The notes under the pieces were generated by a model. The model saw only the letters and a program-made list of their open reading frames with translations, did not search any database and was not told where the DNA came from. Below, one piece after another: positions 7,217 to 51,261 of a DNA stretch of 64,000 nucleotides. Every line of letters begins with the position of its first letter. The first letter of the stretch is position 1. The DNA comes from Nitrospirales bacterium (GTDB lineage: Bacteria; Nitrospirota; Nitrospiria; Nitrospirales; UBA8639). The stretch covers positions 1-64,000 of the forward strand of contig JAJDBM010000026.1 of NCBI GenBank assembly GCA_029261355.1, given 5' to 3'. Both the position numbers and the translations under genes were made by a program.

Positions 7217-7879
7217 CTACTGACTTAACGTTCGCACATAGGAGAGAACCTCATGGATTTCTGAATCTGAAAGATTCCCTTTCCAGGAAGGCATGGCGGT
7301 TCCTGGACGACCGTGTCGAATAACTTTGAGTAACGCCCTGTCTGGTTTGTCTGCTGTGGCGGTAAGATCAGCTGCTGGAGGGATAAGGGATTGGCCAATC
7401 GGACCATCGCCTTTTCCTTCTGACCCATGGCAGTTGATACAATACGTCTTGTAGAGGACTTTCCCGTTTATTGGGTTTTCGTTGGGACGCGTGATTGGAG
7501 GCGTGTTGTTACGTCTCTTTTTCAATTGAGTCGTCGGTTGAATGGTATTCTGGTTGAAAAGGTAGTCCACTACTGTCGGAATGTGTTTGTCGGGAATGGG
7601 ACAACCAAATGCATGTTTCATCTTCTTCACAATTTCTTCCCATGTTGCACGTGAGTGTGGAGGTTGTATGTATACATATTCAGCTGAATGACAAATGAGG
7701 CAATAACTTGAGGCTATTTCACTCCCTGGTGCTGTTTGAAAGGTGAGAGGGGGGGAGGGAAGGATGATGGTCTCTGGAAATTCAGCCAATGCTCTTTCAA
7801 GGTTGAGAGGATGAAGGAGTGCAAGCAGAACTATCGCATAGACACGGAACGTTTTGATTCCTTGCGCTTGTCGTATCAT
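7217..7879 (-). CDS. sorB: Diheme c-type cytochrome, SorB-like plus cytochrome c domain
   Basis: This exported protein of 220 residues has a signal peptide (about residues 1-32) and two heme sites, CLICH at 60-64 and CINCH at 147-151. The first domain (SAEYVYIQPP, IVKKMKHAFGCPI) resembles SorB, the cytochrome subunit of sulfite:cytochrome c oxidoreductase. The second is a class I cytochrome c with axial M196 in GTAMPSW. It starts seven bases after the sorA stop, so the two are co-translated. It should accept electrons from the molybdenum subunit and pass them to other periplasmic cytochromes. The SorB/monoheme fusion is longer than classical SorB. Confidence 0.85.
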   Translation of the reverse strand: MIRQAQGIKTFRVYAIVLLALLHPLNLERALAEFPETIILPSPPLTFQTAPGSEIASSYCLICHSAEYVYIQPPHSRATWEEIVKKMKHAFGCPIPDKHIPTVVDYLFNQNTIQPTTQLKKRRNNTPPITRPNENPINGKVLYKTYCINCHGSEGKGDGPIGQSLIPPAADLTATADKPDRALLKVIRHGRPGTAMPSWKGNLSDSEIHEVLSYVRTLSQ

Positions 7880-7885
7880 TTCGTT

Positions 7886-9142
7886 CTACACAGCCTTTAC
7901 GGAGACCGTTTCAATCACATTTCTGAGATATCCGCTAGGATTCCACCGTGCGTTCCACCGTTGTGATTCGCCGATGCGATTAATCGCCAAACATTGAAGA
8001 TGATAGGTTGTTCCAGCAATTGGCGTAAATCGAGCTTCCCAGGGACGAAAGCTGAAATTGCCATAGTCTTCTCCCAAAGTGCTTTGTTGCCATTGCTTGC
8101 CGCCATTGATAGAAAATAGCACTTGATCAATGCCGTATCCCTGGTCAAACGCAATACCTTTCAGCGTCACTGGGTGCCCACTTTTTACCGTGGCATTGTC
8201 CTGAACATTGGTGATAAAGGAACGAACGGTCATTTTATTGATCGGCACCGTTGCGCGAAGCTTTTGCCCTGGTTCTATGCACCCACATGGATCAGCTGGA
8301 AGACGATAGGCCTGCTTCATCCAGAAATCTTGATCAATTGCATTCAGCACCTCAATATCGTTCAAGGCTTTAATCCAATAGGACGCGTACCAGCCTGGTA
8401 TGACTAAACGAAGTGGATAGCCATTCAAATAGGGGAGGGGTTCGCCATTCATGGCATACGCGACCATGACTTCTTGACGTAGCACCTCTTCTACGTTTAA
8501 TGATTTTCGAAAGTCTGGGGTGACGTCGGCCACAGCCTTATCAAGGCCATCAAATCGAACTTGAACGGCATCATCTTTGACTCCAGCTTTTTCCAGAAGA
8601 TCCTTCAAACGGACGCCCGTCCATTTGGCATTGCCCATGGCGCCGTGTCCCCATTGCCCACCTGGCACTCGTGGCTCAAAAAACCCTCGACTGTTTCCCC
8701 CGCATTGACAGACCGCAGCCATCTCAACTGGTTCAAAATCATTTTTTAGAGTATCAAGACTCAGTGTGAGTTTCGTCTTGACTTGGCCCCGAATCGTTAA
8801 TCGAAATTCATTGAGGTCAATGTGTGTGGGAATGTTGGCGAGATGCCAACGAACAAAAAAAGCGTCGTTCGGGGTGAAAATACTTTCATTGAAGACATGA
8901 AAGGGCGTTTCCAATTGAGGTGGTCTCGTCGTCATCACCATCAATGGGCGCTTTTGTGGAAAGGCGATGAGCGGACGTCGCCCGCGATCAAATGGTAATG
9001 TGATGGCTGACGGCGTCTCTGCACTTCCTATGCGGGTCCCGAATATAGCGCTTCCACCTAACATGATCCCGGCCTTGAGGAAGCCACGACGAGTCAGGGC
9101 GTTGCTGTCATTGACGTGATTCGGGATTTGTTTGTTTTCCAT
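7886..9142 (-). CDS. sorA: Sulfite:cytochrome c oxidoreductase, molybdopterin subunit
   Basis: This 418-residue periplasmic enzyme oxidises sulfite to sulfate. A Tat signal (TRRGFLKAG at 17-25) predicts export after molybdenum cofactor insertion. The sulfite-oxidase Moco domain follows, with the cysteine ligand in QCGGNSRGFF (C147), GVRLKDLL, YAMNGEPLPYLNGYPLRLVIPGWYA split over the substrate pocket, then a C-terminal Mo-co dimerisation domain with FSINGGKQW. The neighbours are SorB and further cytochromes, so electrons enter the c-type pool. Nitrate-reductase-like members of the same fold exist, but the SorB partner favours sulfite. Confidence 0.88.
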   Translation of the reverse strand: MENKQIPNHVNDSNALTRRGFLKAGIMLGGSAIFGTRIGSAETPSAITLPFDRGRRPLIAFPQKRPLMVMTTRPPQLETPFHVFNESIFTPNDAFFVRWHLANIPTHIDLNEFRLTIRGQVKTKLTLSLDTLKNDFEPVEMAAVCQCGGNSRGFFEPRVPGGQWGHGAMGNAKWTGVRLKDLLEKAGVKDDAVQVRFDGLDKAVADVTPDFRKSLNVEEVLRQEVMVAYAMNGEPLPYLNGYPLRLVIPGWYASYWIKALNDIEVLNAIDQDFWMKQAYRLPADPCGCIEPGQKLRATVPINKMTVRSFITNVQDNATVKSGHPVTLKGIAFDQGYGIDQVLFSINGGKQWQQSTLGEDYGNFSFRPWEARFTPIAGTTYHLQCLAINRIGESQRWNARWNPSGYLRNVIETVSVKAV

Positions 9143-9152
9143 ATACGTGGCT

Positions 9153-9620
9153 CTAGGTTCCTTGGAACGATCTTAAGTAGGTCACAAGCTTCCATGCTTC
9201 GTTATCGCTCACAAATTGGGGTAAAAACGAGGCCATGTCTGTTCCATGGCTCCCATGTTTAAGAATCCAAAAAATTTCCCCGTCGCTTCTGGCTGTTTGC
9301 CATGCTCCATCAGCAAAATTCGTGGGCATCGGGTGAGCCGACGTATCGTAATCTGGTCCCACAGGCAACCCTTGTCCATCACGCCCATGGCACGCCCAAC
9401 AAAAGGCACGACCTTCGTACAGTCGTCGTCCTTGATCCATAAATGTCTGAGTAATGGTAAATGGATTTTTGAGTGACTGCGCTTCTTCTAATTGTTCATG
9501 TGGAACACGGGACTGTAACTCTCCCGAATAGGCGTGCATTGCAAGCGGAAGGCTTACGAGAAGAGTGAGCATAGTCATGACCGATATGAGGCTGATGCAT
9601 CGTGACAGATAATTGGTCAT
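9153..9620 (-). CDS. Monoheme c-type cytochrome
   Basis: This 155-residue exported protein has an N-terminal signal segment (residues 10-30), one heme motif CWACH at 74-78 and the axial methionine region HGTDMASF (M129). The end AWKLVTYLRSF is the usual last helix of class I cytochromes. It ends 11 bases before sorA and likely belongs to the same transcript, as electron acceptor or shuttle for SorAB. Its C-terminal half resembles the last domain of the upstream tetraheme protein and the lipoprotein at 18289. Confidence 0.85.
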   Translation of the reverse strand: MTNYLSRCISLISVMTMLTLLVSLPLAMHAYSGELQSRVPHEQLEEAQSLKNPFTITQTFMDQGRRLYEGRAFCWACHGRDGQGLPVGPDYDTSAHPMPTNFADGAWQTARSDGEIFWILKHGSHGTDMASFLPQFVSDNEAWKLVTYLRSFQGT

Positions 9621-9675
9621 GGAAATACCCTTTCTTTCATGGTTCGGGCTGTGTTGAACCGTGACCGTTCACGCA

Positions 9676-11106
9676 TTATTTGACTAACGTTCGAATATAG
9701 TGAATGAGTTGCCAAATTTGATTATCGGACATCCCAGAGAATGCCATCATGCCAGTTCCCGGAGAGCCCTTCTTGATGATCCAGAACATCTGTCCATCTG
9801 AAATGTCTTGCATCGTCTCGCCACAAGTGAAGTTACGCGGGTGTGGATTCAACGCGCCACCCATCGGACCATGGCCATCACCTTTTTCGCCATGGCATTG
9901 CTTGCAGGCTAAAGGCATGGCCGTTTCGTGAAAGAGTGTTTTTCCAGCCTTGATATGCTCCTGTGACGCCTCCAACGGGTTGGTCATCTTTCTAAATGTG
10001 CCAGGAGCACGTTTTGTGTTTCGCGGTTGTGGGCAGACACCTGAGGCCTTTGAGCCTCCAGTTGTTGCAACTTGTGGTCCGCCTTTAAATGTGGTCTTTA
10101 AATAAGCAATGACATCGGCTACACCTTGGTTCCCACCAATCGTTAGCCCCCAATATGGCATCAACGAAGATTTTCCAACGCCTTTCCCGCCATAATAGAT
10201 CACATTGTAAAGATAATCGAGAGGAATCTTCTCAAAGGGAATATTGGCATGAACGGCCGGTTTGGGTACTAATCCTGAAGCTGCTGGCCCATCGCCTTTC
10301 CCATCGGCCCCGTGACATTGCGCACAATATTCTTGATAAATTTTTGCGCCATTTTTCCTGTTCGGATTATTGAACTCTGTACTCTTCCAGGGTTCGTAAT
10401 AAGGGAAATCCTCAATGCCGCGGGTTGCAATGAATCCTGTGACATAACGAAGGCCGAGTTCACTGACATCGCCCACAAATTCCCCACTGTGTGGCACAAA
10501 ATCTGGTGGACTCGAGTTAAATCGATGGATCCAGTTGGCTTTGAGCCTTTTTCCAGAATCAAAGAATGTTGTACTTTGAGGGCCTCCGATCTTTTTCCCA
10601 TCTACTATGATTTGATGACAGCCAATGCAGGAATGTTGTGTAAAGATCTCTTCCCCTAACTTGGCTTCCTGTATGCTGAATGTGGACATATCGATCGCAT
10701 TGCTTTTCACACGAGAATCTTGCAGGTGGCTCTCGAAGTAATCTGCGATGGCTTCAGCCTCTTTCTGAGTCACGGCAGTATGTTTCTCTGGTGTTTGGGA
10801 ACGATCCCATCGATAGCTTTTCGCATAGAGCATCGGAATCTTTCCCGTGAGCCAGTCCATGAGCCATGGTCGCTGGAATTTACTCCCTCCCCACATAAGA
10901 TCTGGGGCCTTCAAGTTAAATCGACTTTCACCCTCACCTGTAAATTTGTGGCATGTCGAGCACAGATTGTTAACGAGTGTCTCACCGTCATATTTACTGT
11001 CTGCCCAACTAAGGCTCGGGCAATATAAAAGCACAACGATAATAAGGACCATTCTTGAAGTATTCCAAGCACGATGGGGTGTCATTTGATTTCCTGTGTT
11101 CAGCAT
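9676..11106 (-). CDS. Periplasmic tetraheme c-type cytochrome
   Basis: This 476-residue exported protein has four heme motifs in order: CSTCH, CIGCH, CAQCH and CKQCH. The first half (PDLMWGGSKFQRPWLMDWL and the second heme) is homologous to the diheme protein at 11815. The third and fourth are class I cytochrome domains with likely methionine ligands (SSLMPYWG, GTGMMAF). I choose ATG 11106 because AGGAGGG precedes it and a signal peptide follows; ATG 11202 in the same frame lacks both. It is the first gene of the cytochrome/SorAB set and has a sigma54-type promoter upstream. It probably wires SorAB to a terminal oxidase or another acceptor. Confidence 0.83.
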   Translation of the reverse strand: MLNTGNQMTPHRAWNTSRMVLIIVVLLYCPSLSWADSKYDGETLVNNLCSTCHKFTGEGESRFNLKAPDLMWGGSKFQRPWLMDWLTGKIPMLYAKSYRWDRSQTPEKHTAVTQKEAEAIADYFESHLQDSRVKSNAIDMSTFSIQEAKLGEEIFTQHSCIGCHQIIVDGKKIGGPQSTTFFDSGKRLKANWIHRFNSSPPDFVPHSGEFVGDVSELGLRYVTGFIATRGIEDFPYYEPWKSTEFNNPNRKNGAKIYQEYCAQCHGADGKGDGPAASGLVPKPAVHANIPFEKIPLDYLYNVIYYGGKGVGKSSLMPYWGLTIGGNQGVADVIAYLKTTFKGGPQVATTGGSKASGVCPQPRNTKRAPGTFRKMTNPLEASQEHIKAGKTLFHETAMPLACKQCHGEKGDGHGPMGGALNPHPRNFTCGETMQDISDGQMFWIIKKGSPGTGMMAFSGMSDNQIWQLIHYIRTLVK

Positions 11107-11246
11107 TAAACCCTCCTTAGCAGGACTATTTTTAGTAACCATCATAATCGTGGGATCAAACGTGTGGCATTCTTCTACATCTTCCGAAAAAAAATGACCC
11201 ATTTGTACTCAATAATTAGGATTCCTTCGGGTTCAATAGAGTATTG

Positions 11247-11262
11247 AGCAAATTTAGCGCCA
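11247..11262 (-). promoter_or_regulatory. Sigma54-type promoter for tetraheme/SorAB genes
   Basis: On the minus strand the sequence is TGGCGCTAAATTTGCT, with GG and GC at the exact -24/-12 spacing of the sigma54 consensus (TGGCAC, five bases, TTGC). Two consensus bases differ. It would start transcription near 11236, giving a 5' leader of about 130 bases to ATG 11106. Confidence 0.55.
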
Positions 11263-11367
11263 GAATTTGAGGTAAGTCACGTAGAAGAAAATGCACATAT
11301 TCACAGGGTATTTATTGGAGACGCGAAAGATGCTTGGATTGGAACAATATATATAAAGTTGTTCGCG

Positions 11368-11755
11368 TTAAGGCTTAACGAAACTTGTAACTTCACATGG
11401 AGTTGTGACTTTCTTCTTTTCTGGAGATAGGGGATAGCTCAATATTCCCCCAGTGAGCTTGTAGACTGTTTCAAAGCCGTATTGCAGTAGAATGCGTGCG
11501 TTAAGATACCTGATGGCCAACCTACACCTTGATCCGAAAGCATTTCCAAAAACTTTCAGGGGTTTGCAGTAACAAATCGTCACGATCCGTTATGGTTTCA
11601 CCTACATAGTAGGGCAACCCGCAATTGGCACAAGAGACAAACGAACCACGCTCAAACATGACAATCTCTGCCGCTTCATTTGTGCGGCGTGCTTTGGCTG
11701 CTGCGCTGGTGCCACCGGCCACATCGTCAATGATGACTATCTTCATACATTTCAT
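11368..11755 (-). pseudogene. CoA-disulfide reductase/rhodanese gene with internal deletion
   Basis: The 5' part encodes the start of an FAD-dependent pyridine nucleotide-disulfide oxidoreductase of the CoA-disulfide reductase type: VAGGTSAAAKARR, then SCANCGLPYYVGETI with the redox cysteine. Near 11540, after LLLQTPESF, the reading shifts to another frame that encodes the end of a C-terminal rhodanese domain (CRLAIRY, RILLQYGFETVYKLTGG). Several hundred codons between them are gone. The gene lies on the same strand between the two cytochrome groups and was probably part of the ancestral locus. No function can remain. Confidence 0.72.
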
Positions 11756-11814
11756 CCTTCGGTAAAGGGGGGGGCATCATTGAGACGTCGCGACTGCTCA
11801 TGAATCTATTGCGT

Positions 11815-12540
11815 TTACTGAAAGGTCATCATGTAACTGGTGATGGCATAAATGTTTTCTTTTAGTAACAGAGGTTTAGGGATATAGGCGCCACTATCTG
11901 GAACGAAATCATTCGGATTCAGGTTGAATCGATACACCCAATCAGCTTGGAGTCGTGTTCCCATCTTGAGAAGAGACGTGCTGGACTTACTACCCGTATA
12001 TCCACGACGATTTTTGGCTGGGGTCCAATGGCAGTTTGAACAGGCATGTTCCCGATACAATTGTGCCCCCTTTTTGAGTTGTTCCAACGTTCCGGGTTTC
12101 ATTATTCCTTCTTGAACCCGTTCGTCTTTTAATGTAGCTAAGTAATGAGTCACTGCTTTGGCTTCATGAGCGGGTAGCGTCTGGTGGCTTTTTTTCCGCT
12201 TAGGATTATAATCATATCCCAGTGGATACAATCGCTGTGTGGGGTTTTGCAACCAGGCCTCAAGCCATGCAGGTTGATATTTATTCCCTGCCCAGATCAG
12301 GTCTGGTGCCTGTTTCGTTCGGCGCGGCATGGGAGGTCCTTCAATGCGATGGCATTGGGTACAGACCGTCTTGACGGTATGCGCTCCAGGACGACTCGTG
12401 TTCACGACCTCTCCGGAATTGGCCGCGTCGAGTCCTAATGTGAGGAGGCTTCCTATCACAAGAATTGTAAAAATTTTCGAATATTTCGTTAAATGTATTT
12501 TGGTCATTTTCGTAGAGACTGTATTGGTGATGTTGATCAT
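11815..12540 (-). CDS. Periplasmic diheme c-type cytochrome
   Basis: This 241-residue exported protein has a signal peptide after a short positively charged N-terminus and two heme motifs, CTQCH and CSNCH. It shares the blocks PDLIWAGNKYQPAWLEAWL and NPNDFVPDSGAY with the first half of the tetraheme cytochrome at 9676, so one arose from the other by duplication. Its ATG overlaps the stop of the upstream gene (ATGA at 12537-12540), showing translational coupling with the secreted protein. The partner is unknown. Confidence 0.85.
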   Translation of the reverse strand: MINITNTVSTKMTKIHLTKYSKIFTILVIGSLLTLGLDAANSGEVVNTSRPGAHTVKTVCTQCHRIEGPPMPRRTKQAPDLIWAGNKYQPAWLEAWLQNPTQRLYPLGYDYNPKRKKSHQTLPAHEAKAVTHYLATLKDERVQEGIMKPGTLEQLKKGAQLYREHACSNCHWTPAKNRRGYTGSKSSTSLLKMGTRLQADWVYRFNLNPNDFVPDSGAYIPKPLLLKENIYAITSYMMTFQ

Positions 12541-41651: not shown

Positions 41652-42053
41652 TTGAAAGATCTAGAAATTATTTTACTGGTAATCCACGAAACAAAAGTTC
41701 GAGAAAGTATTTCTCGGGGGTTACAAATGCGAGGCTATTCGGTTGCGAGTACACAGGATGGAGAAGAAGCACTCACGCATGTTTCTCAAATTTCTCCCTC
41801 CGTTATTCTTATTGATCTTTACCTTAAAAATCCGAGTGGCTTAGAGCTCTTAAGAAGGCTTCGTTTGCAGGGGTATCGGGGAAAAGTGATTCTTCTCTCG
41901 GGCATGTCGTTGAGGACTGAGATGTCAGAAGCGTATTCTTGGGGTGTTGATCATGTCCTGTGTCGGCCACTGAATTTAGATGAATTGAATTGTGCAATCT
42001 GCTCTGTTCTAGGATCTGCTACAAGTACCGAGATCCATTTACCAATTTCCTAA
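41652..42053 (+). CDS. Degenerate single-domain receiver protein
   Basis: This 133-residue receiver-fold protein has the phosphorylation-site aspartate position (ILIDLYL), but the N-terminal acidic pair is replaced (LLVIHETK instead of VDDE) and the C-terminal lysine is replaced by arginine (LCRPLNL). Standard phosphotransfer chemistry is therefore unlikely, as in pseudo-receivers. It starts at TTG 41652 with GAGGA upstream. No kinase is adjacent. Confidence 0.75.
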   Translation: MKDLEIILLVIHETKVRESISRGLQMRGYSVASTQDGEEALTHVSQISPSVILIDLYLKNPSGLELLRRLRLQGYRGKVILLSGMSLRTEMSEAYSWGVDHVLCRPLNLDELNCAICSVLGSATSTEIHLPIS

Positions 42054-42668: not shown

Positions 42669-42800
42669 GTCGGTAAACATAAAATATTGTGCGCGTTCAA
42701 ATTTTCTGCAAACCCTTTCACGAGATCCCAATAGCTATATATCTTCCAATCATGCCGAGTCCCAACCAGAGTAAATCATTTGACAAGGTTCCCCTTCATG

Positions 42801-43215
42801 GGGCCACTTTAGTTGGCTTTATTTCTTTGCATTTTTAACGAAAATTCGGGGATTCTTCTTCTTTCGCTTTGGACTGCCTGGATGGCAAATATGAATCCTC
42901 GGTGCCTGTCTATTACTTCTAGTCGTCGCTCTTATCCGTCGTTGGGAACACTATATTGTGAGGCCGACATGCGTGATCATGAAGAATGGGTATAGTCAAC
43001 ATGAAATTGCCTTTCTCAAGCTTGAGAAGATTAAAGATATCAACCTAGTGCAGTGACCAATTATCAGATTTTGGGAAATCGGAACCCTGGTTATCTTGTT
43101 ATCAAAAGAAGGGCGAGAGTTACGAATTCTCGGGGTAAAAGAGCCAGATGTTGTGGAAGCGAAAATCTTGGCGTTATTGCCAGGGCCACTCGTAGATCAT
43201 TCGCTTTCGTCATGA
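42801..43215 (+). pseudogene. PH-domain membrane protein (YdbS/YdbT-like) remnant
   Basis: Two frames encode pieces of one protein. The first has two hydrophobic helices (GILLLSLWTAWMANMNP). After a shift near 42899 the next frame gives ACLLLLVVALIRRWEHYIV and a bacterial PH domain: SQHEIAFLKLEKIKDINLVQ, then TGA at 43054-43056, then FWEIGTLVIL and GVKEPDVVEAKILAL to the stop at 43215. A TAG also interrupts the first few codons. The order transmembrane pair plus bPH2 domain fits YdbS-like proteins. Dead gene. Confidence 0.72.
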
Positions 43216-43270: not shown

Positions 43271-43855
43271 ATGACGATTATTTCTCACCGCATACATCTT
43301 ATTGTCTGGCTACTGGTTGTGGCGGTTGCGGCAGCCTTGTCGATAGAACTCATGTTGAGCGAAAACCCCGGACGCCTATTTGGTCATACGCAGATGGCAC
43401 ATATTGTTGGCTGGCTGGGACTTCTCATGATCACACTGACCTTAGTGTATCCTATCAAACGCCGTTTGCATCCCAATGATGTCTGGCCGAAGCAATGGTT
43501 TAAAGTTCATCAGATTTTTGGAATTCTTGGCCCATTGCTTATCTTGGTTCATTCAGGAACGCACTTTCACGCCGCAGTTCCAGTACTGGCACTTATTGCG
43601 ATGCTCCTCGTGGTGTTTAGCGGAATTACAGGGCAAGCCTTACATTATTTTGCGTTTCGGACCATGCATGAACAGCGTCATAAGCTTGCGGAGCAAGGAC
43701 TAACTCAGGAGGCTGTTGAATCACGTCTCCGGGCACTCGCTCAACAAGCGGAAACGCTCCGATCGTGGCGGTGCGTCCACGGTCCTTTCACATGGACGTT
43801 TATCCTACTCACGCTTATTCATGTTGGTGGGGCACTCTACTTTGGAGGTTTATAG
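43271..43855 (+). CDS. Multi-pass membrane protein, cytochrome b-like, partner of the pentaheme gene
   Basis: This 194-residue protein has about four to five transmembrane helices with well-placed histidines (HTQMAH, VHQIFG, LVHSGTHFHAAV, HGPFTWTFILLTLIHVGG), the pattern of ferric-reductase or cytochrome b-type membrane subunits. Between helices lies a charged segment (MHEQRHKLAEQGLTQEAVE). It ends four bases before the pentaheme cytochrome gene, implying a membrane complex that moves electrons between the quinone pool and the periplasmic hemes. Confidence 0.72.
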   Translation: MTIISHRIHLIVWLLVVAVAAALSIELMLSENPGRLFGHTQMAHIVGWLGLLMITLTLVYPIKRRLHPNDVWPKQWFKVHQIFGILGPLLILVHSGTHFHAAVPVLALIAMLLVVFSGITGQALHYFAFRTMHEQRHKLAEQGLTQEAVESRLRALAQQAETLRSWRCVHGPFTWTFILLTLIHVGGALYFGGL

Positions 43856-43858
43856 CTG

Positions 43859-44440
43859 ATGTGGTGTCTACAGTCATGGGTAAAGCCCGTCGTTCTTATT
43901 GCAACGGCTTTGCTTATCGTATACATAGCCTGGGGCTCGCTTCACAACCCCGAAGCCCTATGGGCTCCCGGTCATCTCAGTCGTTTTCATGCTGATATTT
44001 CTACTTGTGAACGCTGTCATGAAGCGTTTGTGGGTGCATCAAATGGCAAGTGTCTTGCCTGTCATACATTACTAGAGTTTCAATTGAAGTCATCTGCAGA
44101 CATTCATCATCTTCATCGATCGGCGATAGATCAACAACGTTCTTGTATGGATTGTCATACCGAGCATCGTGGCGTGTTAGCGAGGATTACTCTTGGAACA
44201 TTGCATAATCCACATGGTGAATTTGTGTATAGAGCCACGGGCACCTCGTCTTGCTCAGACTGTCATGTTATGAGTTCAGGAATGATAGACACGAACCCGG
44301 TTCTTTTGAATAACTCTAGAGTTCGTCATCTTATTGAAGAAGGGGAAGGAGCTCATCGACCAGGACATTTTGCTCAATGTTTAAAGTGTCATCGAGGAGA
44401 GCCGTTAGATAGGGCGAAAGAGAAAAGGGAGGACGATTAA
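43859..44440 (+). CDS. Membrane-anchored pentaheme c-type cytochrome
   Basis: This 193-residue protein has an N-terminal anchor (VVLIATALLIVYIAW) and five heme motifs: CERCH, CLACH, CMDCH, CSDCH and CLKCH. Histidine-rich spacers (ADIHHLHR) supply likely axial ligands. The layout is like cytochromes of the c7/NapC-type or doubled CxxCH fold group rather than class I. It probably forms a complex with the preceding membrane protein. Substrate unknown. Confidence 0.85.
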   Translation: MWCLQSWVKPVVLIATALLIVYIAWGSLHNPEALWAPGHLSRFHADISTCERCHEAFVGASNGKCLACHTLLEFQLKSSADIHHLHRSAIDQQRSCMDCHTEHRGVLARITLGTLHNPHGEFVYRATGTSSCSDCHVMSSGMIDTNPVLLNNSRVRHLIEEGEGAHRPGHFAQCLKCHRGEPLDRAKEKREDD

Positions 44441-44699: not shown

Positions 44700-44745
<46 letters not shown>

Positions 44746-49848: not shown

Positions 49849-51261
49849 ATGGCCGGATCGTTTGTATCAATACCGCCTGAGGATTTCGTTCTTGCCGCAC
49901 GGGTAGAGGGATTAACACTTCTCGCGAATCAACTGAGTGAACCAGTCGTCATCTTTGATCCAAGTTTGAGGCTTGTTTATGCGAATACTCATGCAGACTC
50001 GTTGGTTTCATCATGTCCACTCTTGAACGACTCTTCATCTATCGATCTCGATGCTTCATCGAGATCTCAGGAATCATGTACGGTTTGTCCTGCCAAGGAC
50101 CTACTGACAGGTATGGAAACTCAGAACTCAAGTAACCCAGAACCTTCAATCATCAACATGGGTAATCCTTCTTGTCCATTTCCAACCTCTTTTACTGTTC
50201 CTGGTGCTAGGGATAATCTAGCTTGTGTTGTGTTGATGGGACGCTCTCCTGAGGGAAATCAGGTGTTGAAAACGTCGTTGGAGAATATTACTTCAACTCA
50301 GGATATCCCAATTTCTCAAGAGAATCAGTTTGTTCATCCGTTGATTGGGCAGAGTGCTTCCATGCAACAACTTCTGGATATGATTGGGTTGGTGGCACAA
50401 TCTGAGTCGACTGTCATGATAGAGGGGGAAAGTGGAACAGGTAAGGAATTGGTAGCCAAAACCATTCATCAAATGAGCTCTCGTCGTGACCACCCCTTTG
50501 TCGTTGTTGAATGTAGTTCATTGCCAGAAACATTGTTAGAAAGTGAATTATTTGGTCACGTTCGAGGAGCCTTTACCGGGGCAGTAGCTGATCGAAAAGG
50601 ACTGTTTGAGGAAGCTGAGGGGGGCACGATTTTTTTAGATGAAATCGCCGACACCTCTCCAACGTTTCAAGCGAAACTTCTTCGTGTTTTACAAGAAGGA
50701 GAAATTAAACCGGTTGGGAGTAACCGTAATATTACCGTAGATGTGCGAGTCATTTCCGCAAGTAATAAGCCTCTCGCTTCTCTTGTCCAAGAACGGGCTT
50801 TTCGCACAGATCTCTACTACCGATTGGCAGTTCTTCCTTTAGCGATTCCCGCTCTGAGGGATAGAAGTGGAGATATTCCGCTTCTTGTCAAGTATTTCCT
50901 GGAGAAATCCTGTATGCAGAATAGTAAGGTTGGGCGCTTAATTCCACCTGAGACGATGCATGCTTTGGTCGCTCATGATTGGCCTGGTAATGTGAGAGAA
51001 TTAGAGAATGTCATTGAACGAGCTGTCGTGGTAGGCCAGCATTCGACACTCAAGATTCAGGATTTTTTTGGTGCAAGGCCGGATGTGTCTGAAGTACGAG
51101 ACTTCTCTTCACTTAGCAAAGCGGCTCGACAAGCAGTAGAAAAAAAAGAAATTCTCAAGGCCTTGCAAGAGACTCGAGGAGATAAAAGCCGTGCCGCTCG
51201 AAAACTGAAAATTAGTCGAGCAAATCTCTACAATAAACTCAAGGAATTTCAGATTCAGTAA
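49849..51261 (+). CDS. Orphan sigma54-dependent activator with PAS-like sensor
   Basis: This 470-residue activator has no receiver. An N-terminal PAS-like region (PVVIFDPSLRLVYANTHAD) has a cysteine segment CTVCPAKDLL, which could bind metal, heme or a redox ligand. Next come the AAA+ domain with GESGTGKELVAKTIH and the sigma54 loop GAFTGA, Walker B TIFLDEIAD, and a Fis-type helix-turn-helix (TRGDKSRAARKLKISRANLY). No kinase is adjacent, so it is probably controlled directly by a small ligand. It is a second candidate activator for the sigma54-type promoters. Confidence 0.92.
   Translation: MAGSFVSIPPEDFVLAARVEGLTLLANQLSEPVVIFDPSLRLVYANTHADSLVSSCPLLNDSSSIDLDASSRSQESCTVCPAKDLLTGMETQNSSNPEPSIINMGNPSCPFPTSFTVPGARDNLACVVLMGRSPEGNQVLKTSLENITSTQDIPISQENQFVHPLIGQSASMQQLLDMIGLVAQSESTVMIEGESGTGKELVAKTIHQMSSRRDHPFVVVECSSLPETLLESELFGHVRGAFTGAVADRKGLFEEAEGGTIFLDEIADTSPTFQAKLLRVLQEGEIKPVGSNRNITVDVRVISASNKPLASLVQERAFRTDLYYRLAVLPLAIPALRDRSGDIPLLVKYFLEKSCMQNSKVGRLIPPETMHALVAHDWPGNVRELENVIERAVVVGQHSTLKIQDFFGARPDVSEVRDFSSLSKAARQAVEKKEILKALQETRGDKSRAARKLKISRANLYNKLKEFQIQ

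Follow-up and report, generated by a model that had tools for sequence, protein, structure and literature searches.

Whether a small, histidine-rich membrane protein and the multiheme cytochrome c encoded directly behind it could form a route for electrons between the inner membrane and the periplasm, and to which known system such a route would belong, is the question raised by two genes of a Nitrospirales bacterium. They lie in a stretch of 64,000 nucleotides (here called the window), which is part of a 68.7-kb contig. The first gene (43271..43855, forward strand) is an open reading frame of 194 amino acids for a predicted diheme b-type membrane cytochrome. The second (43859..44440, forward strand) encodes a pentaheme c3/c7-type cytochrome of 193 amino acids. 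They are arranged head-to-tail with an intergenic gap of 3 nt; the spacing of four bases given in an earlier reading of this DNA, made from the letters alone (the sequence-only reading), corresponds to the difference of 4 between start and end coordinate. The two reading frames and the five c-heme motifs which that reading had described are present, with five CXXCH motifs in 43859-44440. A GGAGG-like site precedes the pentaheme gene, and a stop codon separates the two reading frames, so that the domains are unfused and the pair lacks the fusion used as a criterion for CbcL/MtoC/MtrH. About eleven CTGT repeats follow the pentaheme gene in a run at 44700-44745. In the host genome (4.6 Mb, 99 % complete) each gene of the pair has a single match, and the nearest named relatives are Nitrospirales MAGs with 69-70 % identity.

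Five transmembrane helices are predicted for the b subunit from the AF2 model (pLDDT 79) and the alignment; a simple hydropathy window by itself gives four. Nine histidines, at positions 39, 44, 80, 94, 98, 100, 125, 170 and 184, are invariant across 14 orthologs, which bears out the description of the membrane protein as histidine-rich. With distant relatives added, in an alignment of 63 relatives (39 near and 24 far), H80, H94, H170 and H184 are the only universal histidines (63/63 each), and five plasmid-borne relatives keep them as well. H80 (codon at 43508..43510) and H94 (43550..43552) are located on TM3, H170 (43778..43780) and H184 (43820..43822) on TM5, all four codons on the forward strand and with a spacing of 14 residues within each helix; TM1 is without a conserved histidine in the same alignment. 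Two transmembrane helices, each with two universal histidines at this spacing, predict two bis-His b hemes, and the b subunit probably binds both. Positively charged loops at residues 63-70 and 129-168 suggest that the N-terminus is probably cytoplasmic; with this placement, H80 and H170 on the cytoplasmic side would ligate the inner heme and H94 and H184 on the periplasmic side the outer one. No quinone-site motif was identified in the b subunit.

The family of the b subunit was sought by Pfam scores, profile-profile comparison and ligand positions. PF01292 gave 22.4 bits on the window protein against a cut-off of 30.1 and 30.6 bits, just over this cut-off, on the best of the 14 orthologs, and the profile-profile probability between the b family and the PF01292 set was 0.7-3.9 %. 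In members of that set from the same phylum, TM1 and TM2 each carry one ligand histidine and the last helix carries two (H15, H50, H168 and H182 in the reference). A HydC-like (PF01292) ligand layout was ruled out for the b subunit, TM1 being devoid of a conserved histidine. The PF00033 set from the same phylum carries H93/H107 and H194/H210, two histidines on each of two helices, and the predicted ligand layout of the b subunit is bc-like, not HydC-like. A bc1/b6f cytochrome b was nevertheless rejected by sequence, as there was no PF00033 match at E 10 and hhalign probabilities against 30 phylum members stayed below 1 % (0.3-0.8 %). The earlier claim of a protein distinct from bc-type systems thus holds by sequence, with the reservation that the ligand layout resembles theirs. 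Likewise rejected was a ferric reductase/NOX protein (PF01794), which gave no Pfam match and less than 1 % in hhalign with only four family members compared.

Taken over the PF01292, PF00033, PF01794 and DUF4405 sets, the last two of which are small (four sequences each), the probability for the b family was at most 8 %, and profile-profile comparison unites the family's own branches at 97-99.9 %. The structural neighbours of the model include superoxide oxidase CybB (Z 9.2), cytochrome b6 (Z 9.0), SpNOX (Z 8.2), cytochrome b561 (Z 8.0) and hydrogenase cytochrome b (Z 7.3). This likeness to many diheme b proteins at Z 7-9 is suggestive only, a Z of about 9 being common for helical bundles. Foldseek with the model returned no match at E <= 0.001, and PDB sequence searches with the b subunit came back empty. 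The protein is not clearly claimed by any of the families checked; judged from its sequence, it is best treated as a family apart, with a bc-like arrangement of its ligands, and a distant common origin is possible.

The partner is easier to place. It passes the Pfam cut-offs for cytochrome c7 and class III cytochrome c (PF14522, 28.6 bits with a cut-off of 24.8; PF02085, 24.5 bits with a cut-off of 22.9), and its motifs CERCH, CLACH, CMDCH, CSDCH and CLKCH follow each other at residues 50, 65, 96, 132 and 174. Besides the CXXCH histidines, those at 44, 86, 103, 119 and 166 are invariant, and since there are five of them, all five c hemes can be bis-His in the predicted ligation. An N-terminal hydrophobic anchor at residues about 8-29 forms a transmembrane helix in the model, which is otherwise poor (pLDDT 54) and too poor for a structure search; PDB sequence searches gave only weak matches to c3 and small tetraheme cytochromes. 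A NapC/NirT/NrfH identity was discarded, PF03264 giving 10.8 bits, under its cut-off of 24.1, and a separate b subunit being present. The distinction from NapC/NrfH drawn in the sequence-only reading therefore stands. A genuine PF03264 member is encoded elsewhere in the same genome.

In the reading we favour, and which we consider reasonably probable, the pair is a two-subunit inner-membrane complex that leads electrons from quinol over two b hemes and the pentaheme subunit to a soluble periplasmic acceptor. The b subunit would take electrons from reduced quinone at a putative quinol site, and these would run through or past the two b hemes, which would be stacked in the membrane with H80/H170 on the cytoplasmic and H94/H184 on the periplasmic side. 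From there they would pass to the pentaheme subunit, presumably anchored by its single helix and exposed to the periplasm, where five heme-loaded bis-His sites would serve as a short wire to the final acceptor. Quinol is the simplest donor because no dehydrogenase or reductase gene is consistently adjacent in the pentaheme subfamily.

The pairing itself is conserved. In 61 of the 64 distinct b-family members whose loci were fetched, a multiheme c gene lies directly downstream on the same strand, and the pairing is therefore not due to chance. Of 395 Nitrospirota genomes, 84 encode the b subunit according to an alignment-based search, which answers the earlier suggestion to look for the pair across genomes; within the order, 18 of 59 relatives matched for the pair, many genomes being without it, and distant relatives occur in Pseudomonadota and Bacteroidota. 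This distribution bears on the direction of electron flow. The complex could work in reverse: c cytochromes of the periplasm would donate to the pentaheme subunit, and the b subunit would reduce quinone, driven by the proton motive force, to supply reverse electron transport in a nitrifier-like lifestyle. A membrane-spanning pair of b hemes allows flow in either sense, the CbcL/MtoC/MtrH relatives have been proposed to work both ways (PMC6295460), and many members of the b family come from Nitrospirales genomes. The pair is, however, not an essential core step given the limited number of genomes matched in order and phylum, and the genome also carries two ordinary cytochrome b genes; we regard the reverse direction as an unlikely but live rival.

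In the tree the pentaheme subfamily forms one clade (support 99/99); some deep branches are long and not to be leaned on. Almost all partners in this close subfamily carry five hemes; one genome has 7, and a small number of shortened or shifted reading frames have 3 or 4. In the case with 7 (L037 8987-9739, genome G053), a pentaheme had become a heptaheme through a near-exact internal repeat of two heme motifs and their flanks. Partners of distant members have 7, 9, 12, 13, 21, 24 or 27 CXXCH, and the range across the b family is mostly 5 to 27 hemes. Related b proteins of about 300 amino acids are found with 21-27 heme c cytochromes at three loci (L075, L076 and L077), adjoining 18-24 heme and TPR proteins; these loci are possible long-range conduits.

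A distant branch forms a three-gene module of a FAD/NAD(P)/2Fe-2S protein, a cytochrome b and a heptaheme c, found in Nitrospirota and, plasmid-borne, in Pseudomonadota and Bacteroidota (Methylophaga, Glaciecola, Variovorax, Spirosoma, Methylocystis, Qipengyuania and Acetobacter), where the upstream gene was taken by its annotation as a 2Fe-2S or FAD/NAD(P) protein. The plasmid modules L083, L091-L095, L190 and L191 combine a 250-aa cytochrome b with a heptaheme c3-type cytochrome, some of them near metal-response, copper or hydrogenase genes. Because this relative branch adjoins a FAD/NAD(P)/2Fe-2S protein, quinol need not be the donor throughout the family. For the pair itself, a quinone-independent reductase resembling ferric reductase/NOX, with electrons running from a cytoplasmic NAD(P)H reductase over the b hemes to the multiheme c, would agree with the position of such a gene directly upstream in the heptaheme branch, in a Nitrospirota genome and similarly on plasmids. 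No such gene adjoins the pentaheme pairs, however, and the b proteins with pentaheme partners share less than 1 % profile probability with ferric-reductase proteins. An NAD(P)H-fed version seems improbable for the window pair, and it is a live rival mainly for the three-gene branch.

Upstream of the pair, the window holds a broken gene for a bacterial PH-domain membrane protein (42784..43212, forward strand), in which no start codon was found and TGA codons interrupt the frame at 42892 and 43054; within the same family, sister genomes have an intact PH-domain membrane protein ahead of the pair (PF03703 bPH_2, E 2.1e-11). Regulatory genes are also close by. A response regulator receiver protein (PF00072) is encoded at 41652..42053 and a sigma-54-type activator, assigned by reading its sequence, at 49849..51261, about 5 kb from the pair, both on the forward strand. 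The receiver-domain cluster recurs near the pair in 10 loci, and in several genomes of another genus within the family a homologue of the activator (cl6, 8 loci) follows the pair at a short distance, both as associations only. In one genus, genes for a receiver-domain protein, a sigma-54-type activator and a conserved, secreted multicopper-oxidase-like protein of 1627 amino acids (L029 12748-17631 and homologues) come after the pair. Elsewhere in the window, c-type cytochromes that each have between one and four CXXCH are clustered on the reverse strand (7217-12540), and inside this cluster is a look-alike of a molybdopterin (sulfite-oxidase-like) oxidoreductase (7886-9142). No Rieske, hydrogenase or molybdoenzyme gene adjoins the pair among the reading frames read, no defence-family match was obtained, and a promoter scan gave fewer promoter-like sites than in shuffles.

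In a family presumed to be Nitrospiraceae, the operon typically starts with cytochrome c' (PF01322), hemerythrin (PF01814) and a diheme c homologous to the C-terminal part of the pentaheme, the diheme c being followed by the cytochrome b and the pentaheme. Cytochrome c' and hemerythrin are absent next to the window pair. These two partners, together with the receiver-domain and sigma-54 activator genes near the pair in the window and in sister genomes, would fit a redox or gas sensor that signals NO, O2 or the redox state of the periplasm to the response regulator and the activator. Yet five c and two b hemes exceed the needs of a sensor, relatives swap to partners with 12-27 hemes, and the regulators were not seen beside the pair in Nitrospiraceae, all of which makes a sensor very improbable. 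For the quinol:periplasm complex, the Nitrospiraceae operon offers a hint of NO or O2 chemistry: since cytochrome c', hemerythrin and diheme c share the operon, an NO- or O2-binding periplasmic protein would be a plausible acceptor there.

Analogous systems that combine a b subunit with a multiheme c are regarded as quinol:cytochrome c oxidoreductases (PMC9129911, PMC6295460, PMC9012536, PMC2909971). With a different b subunit at its base, the pair is most likely an analogue of CbcL/MtoC/MtrH, CbcBA, ANME Mco and the SHP operon. The CbcL/MtoC/MtrH proteins join a membrane diheme b domain to a multiheme bis-His c domain with 3-23 CXXCH for transfer between quinol and periplasm (PMC9129911, PMC6295460), and the nine c hemes of Geobacter sulfurreducens CbcL were shown to be bis-His (PMC9129911). 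The pair resembles them in its five CXXCH and five invariant extra histidines, which predict bis-His ligation. CbcL, however, is one fused polypeptide with the c domain first, six transmembrane helices and a HydC/FdnI-like b domain, whereas the window pair has two genes with b first, five predicted helices, another b family and the two-helix ligand layout.

The SHP-DHC-CytB operon, encoded with regulators, leads electrons from quinol over CytB and a diheme c to a ligand-binding heme protein (PMC2909971). It resembles the Nitrospiraceae operon with cytochrome c' and diheme c, but has a formate-dehydrogenase-type CytB and a diheme c, whereas the window has a pentaheme c and no SHP was seen. In ANME-2 archaea, Mco consists of a cytochrome b gene followed by a gene for a 7-11 heme c and is proposed to act as methanophenazine:cytochrome c oxidoreductase (PMC9012536); the gene order is that of the window pair, but the system is archaeal and its b subunit is a VhtC homologue of hydrogenase type. 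NapC/NrfH share with the pair a membrane-anchored multiheme c that draws electrons from quinol, but differ in that the pair has a separate b subunit and no PF03264 match over cut-off. The b subunits of CbcL and SHP CytB are reportedly of HydC/FdnI type, and the predicted ligands of the window protein do not fit that type; its PF01292 score lies below the cut-off, with one ortholog just over it. CbcBA is encoded by two genes, for a b-type cytochrome and a heptaheme c. CbcB, likened here by description only, could be a relative of the b subunit and is the likeliest source of an existing name. CbcBA of Geobacter sulfurreducens resembles CbcL; it is a b- and c-type cytochrome of the inner membrane that is used near -0.2 V (PMC6148476, PMC12307469).

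The earlier proposal of an undescribed quinol:periplasm electron complex thus survives in part. The b subunit forms a separate family by sequence, and a description of the pair was not found in papers on multiheme cytochromes and cytochrome b of Nitrospira and Nitrospirota; the general kind of complex, on the other hand, is known, and the pair is not a one-off but belongs to a widespread, apparently unnamed family of b plus multiheme c pairs. Tentatively, and as a possibility we hold less firmly than the quinol:periplasm complex itself, this new diheme b family may be a general membrane socket for c3/c7-type cytochromes with 5-27 hemes. With its bc-like ligand layout and no detectable relation to known b families, it would, in Nitrospirota and in further phyla, connect the quinone pool or, in one branch, NAD(P)H with acceptors in the periplasm and perhaps outside the cell. 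Among nitrite oxidisers, Nitrospira and its relatives hold a major place, and the pair offers a small, testable unit that may connect the quinone pool with heme proteins of the periplasm. Through its partners of 5-27 hemes, the wider family would help to explain the passage of electrons into or out of the inner membrane where bacteria have none of the CbcL, ImcH or CymA types.
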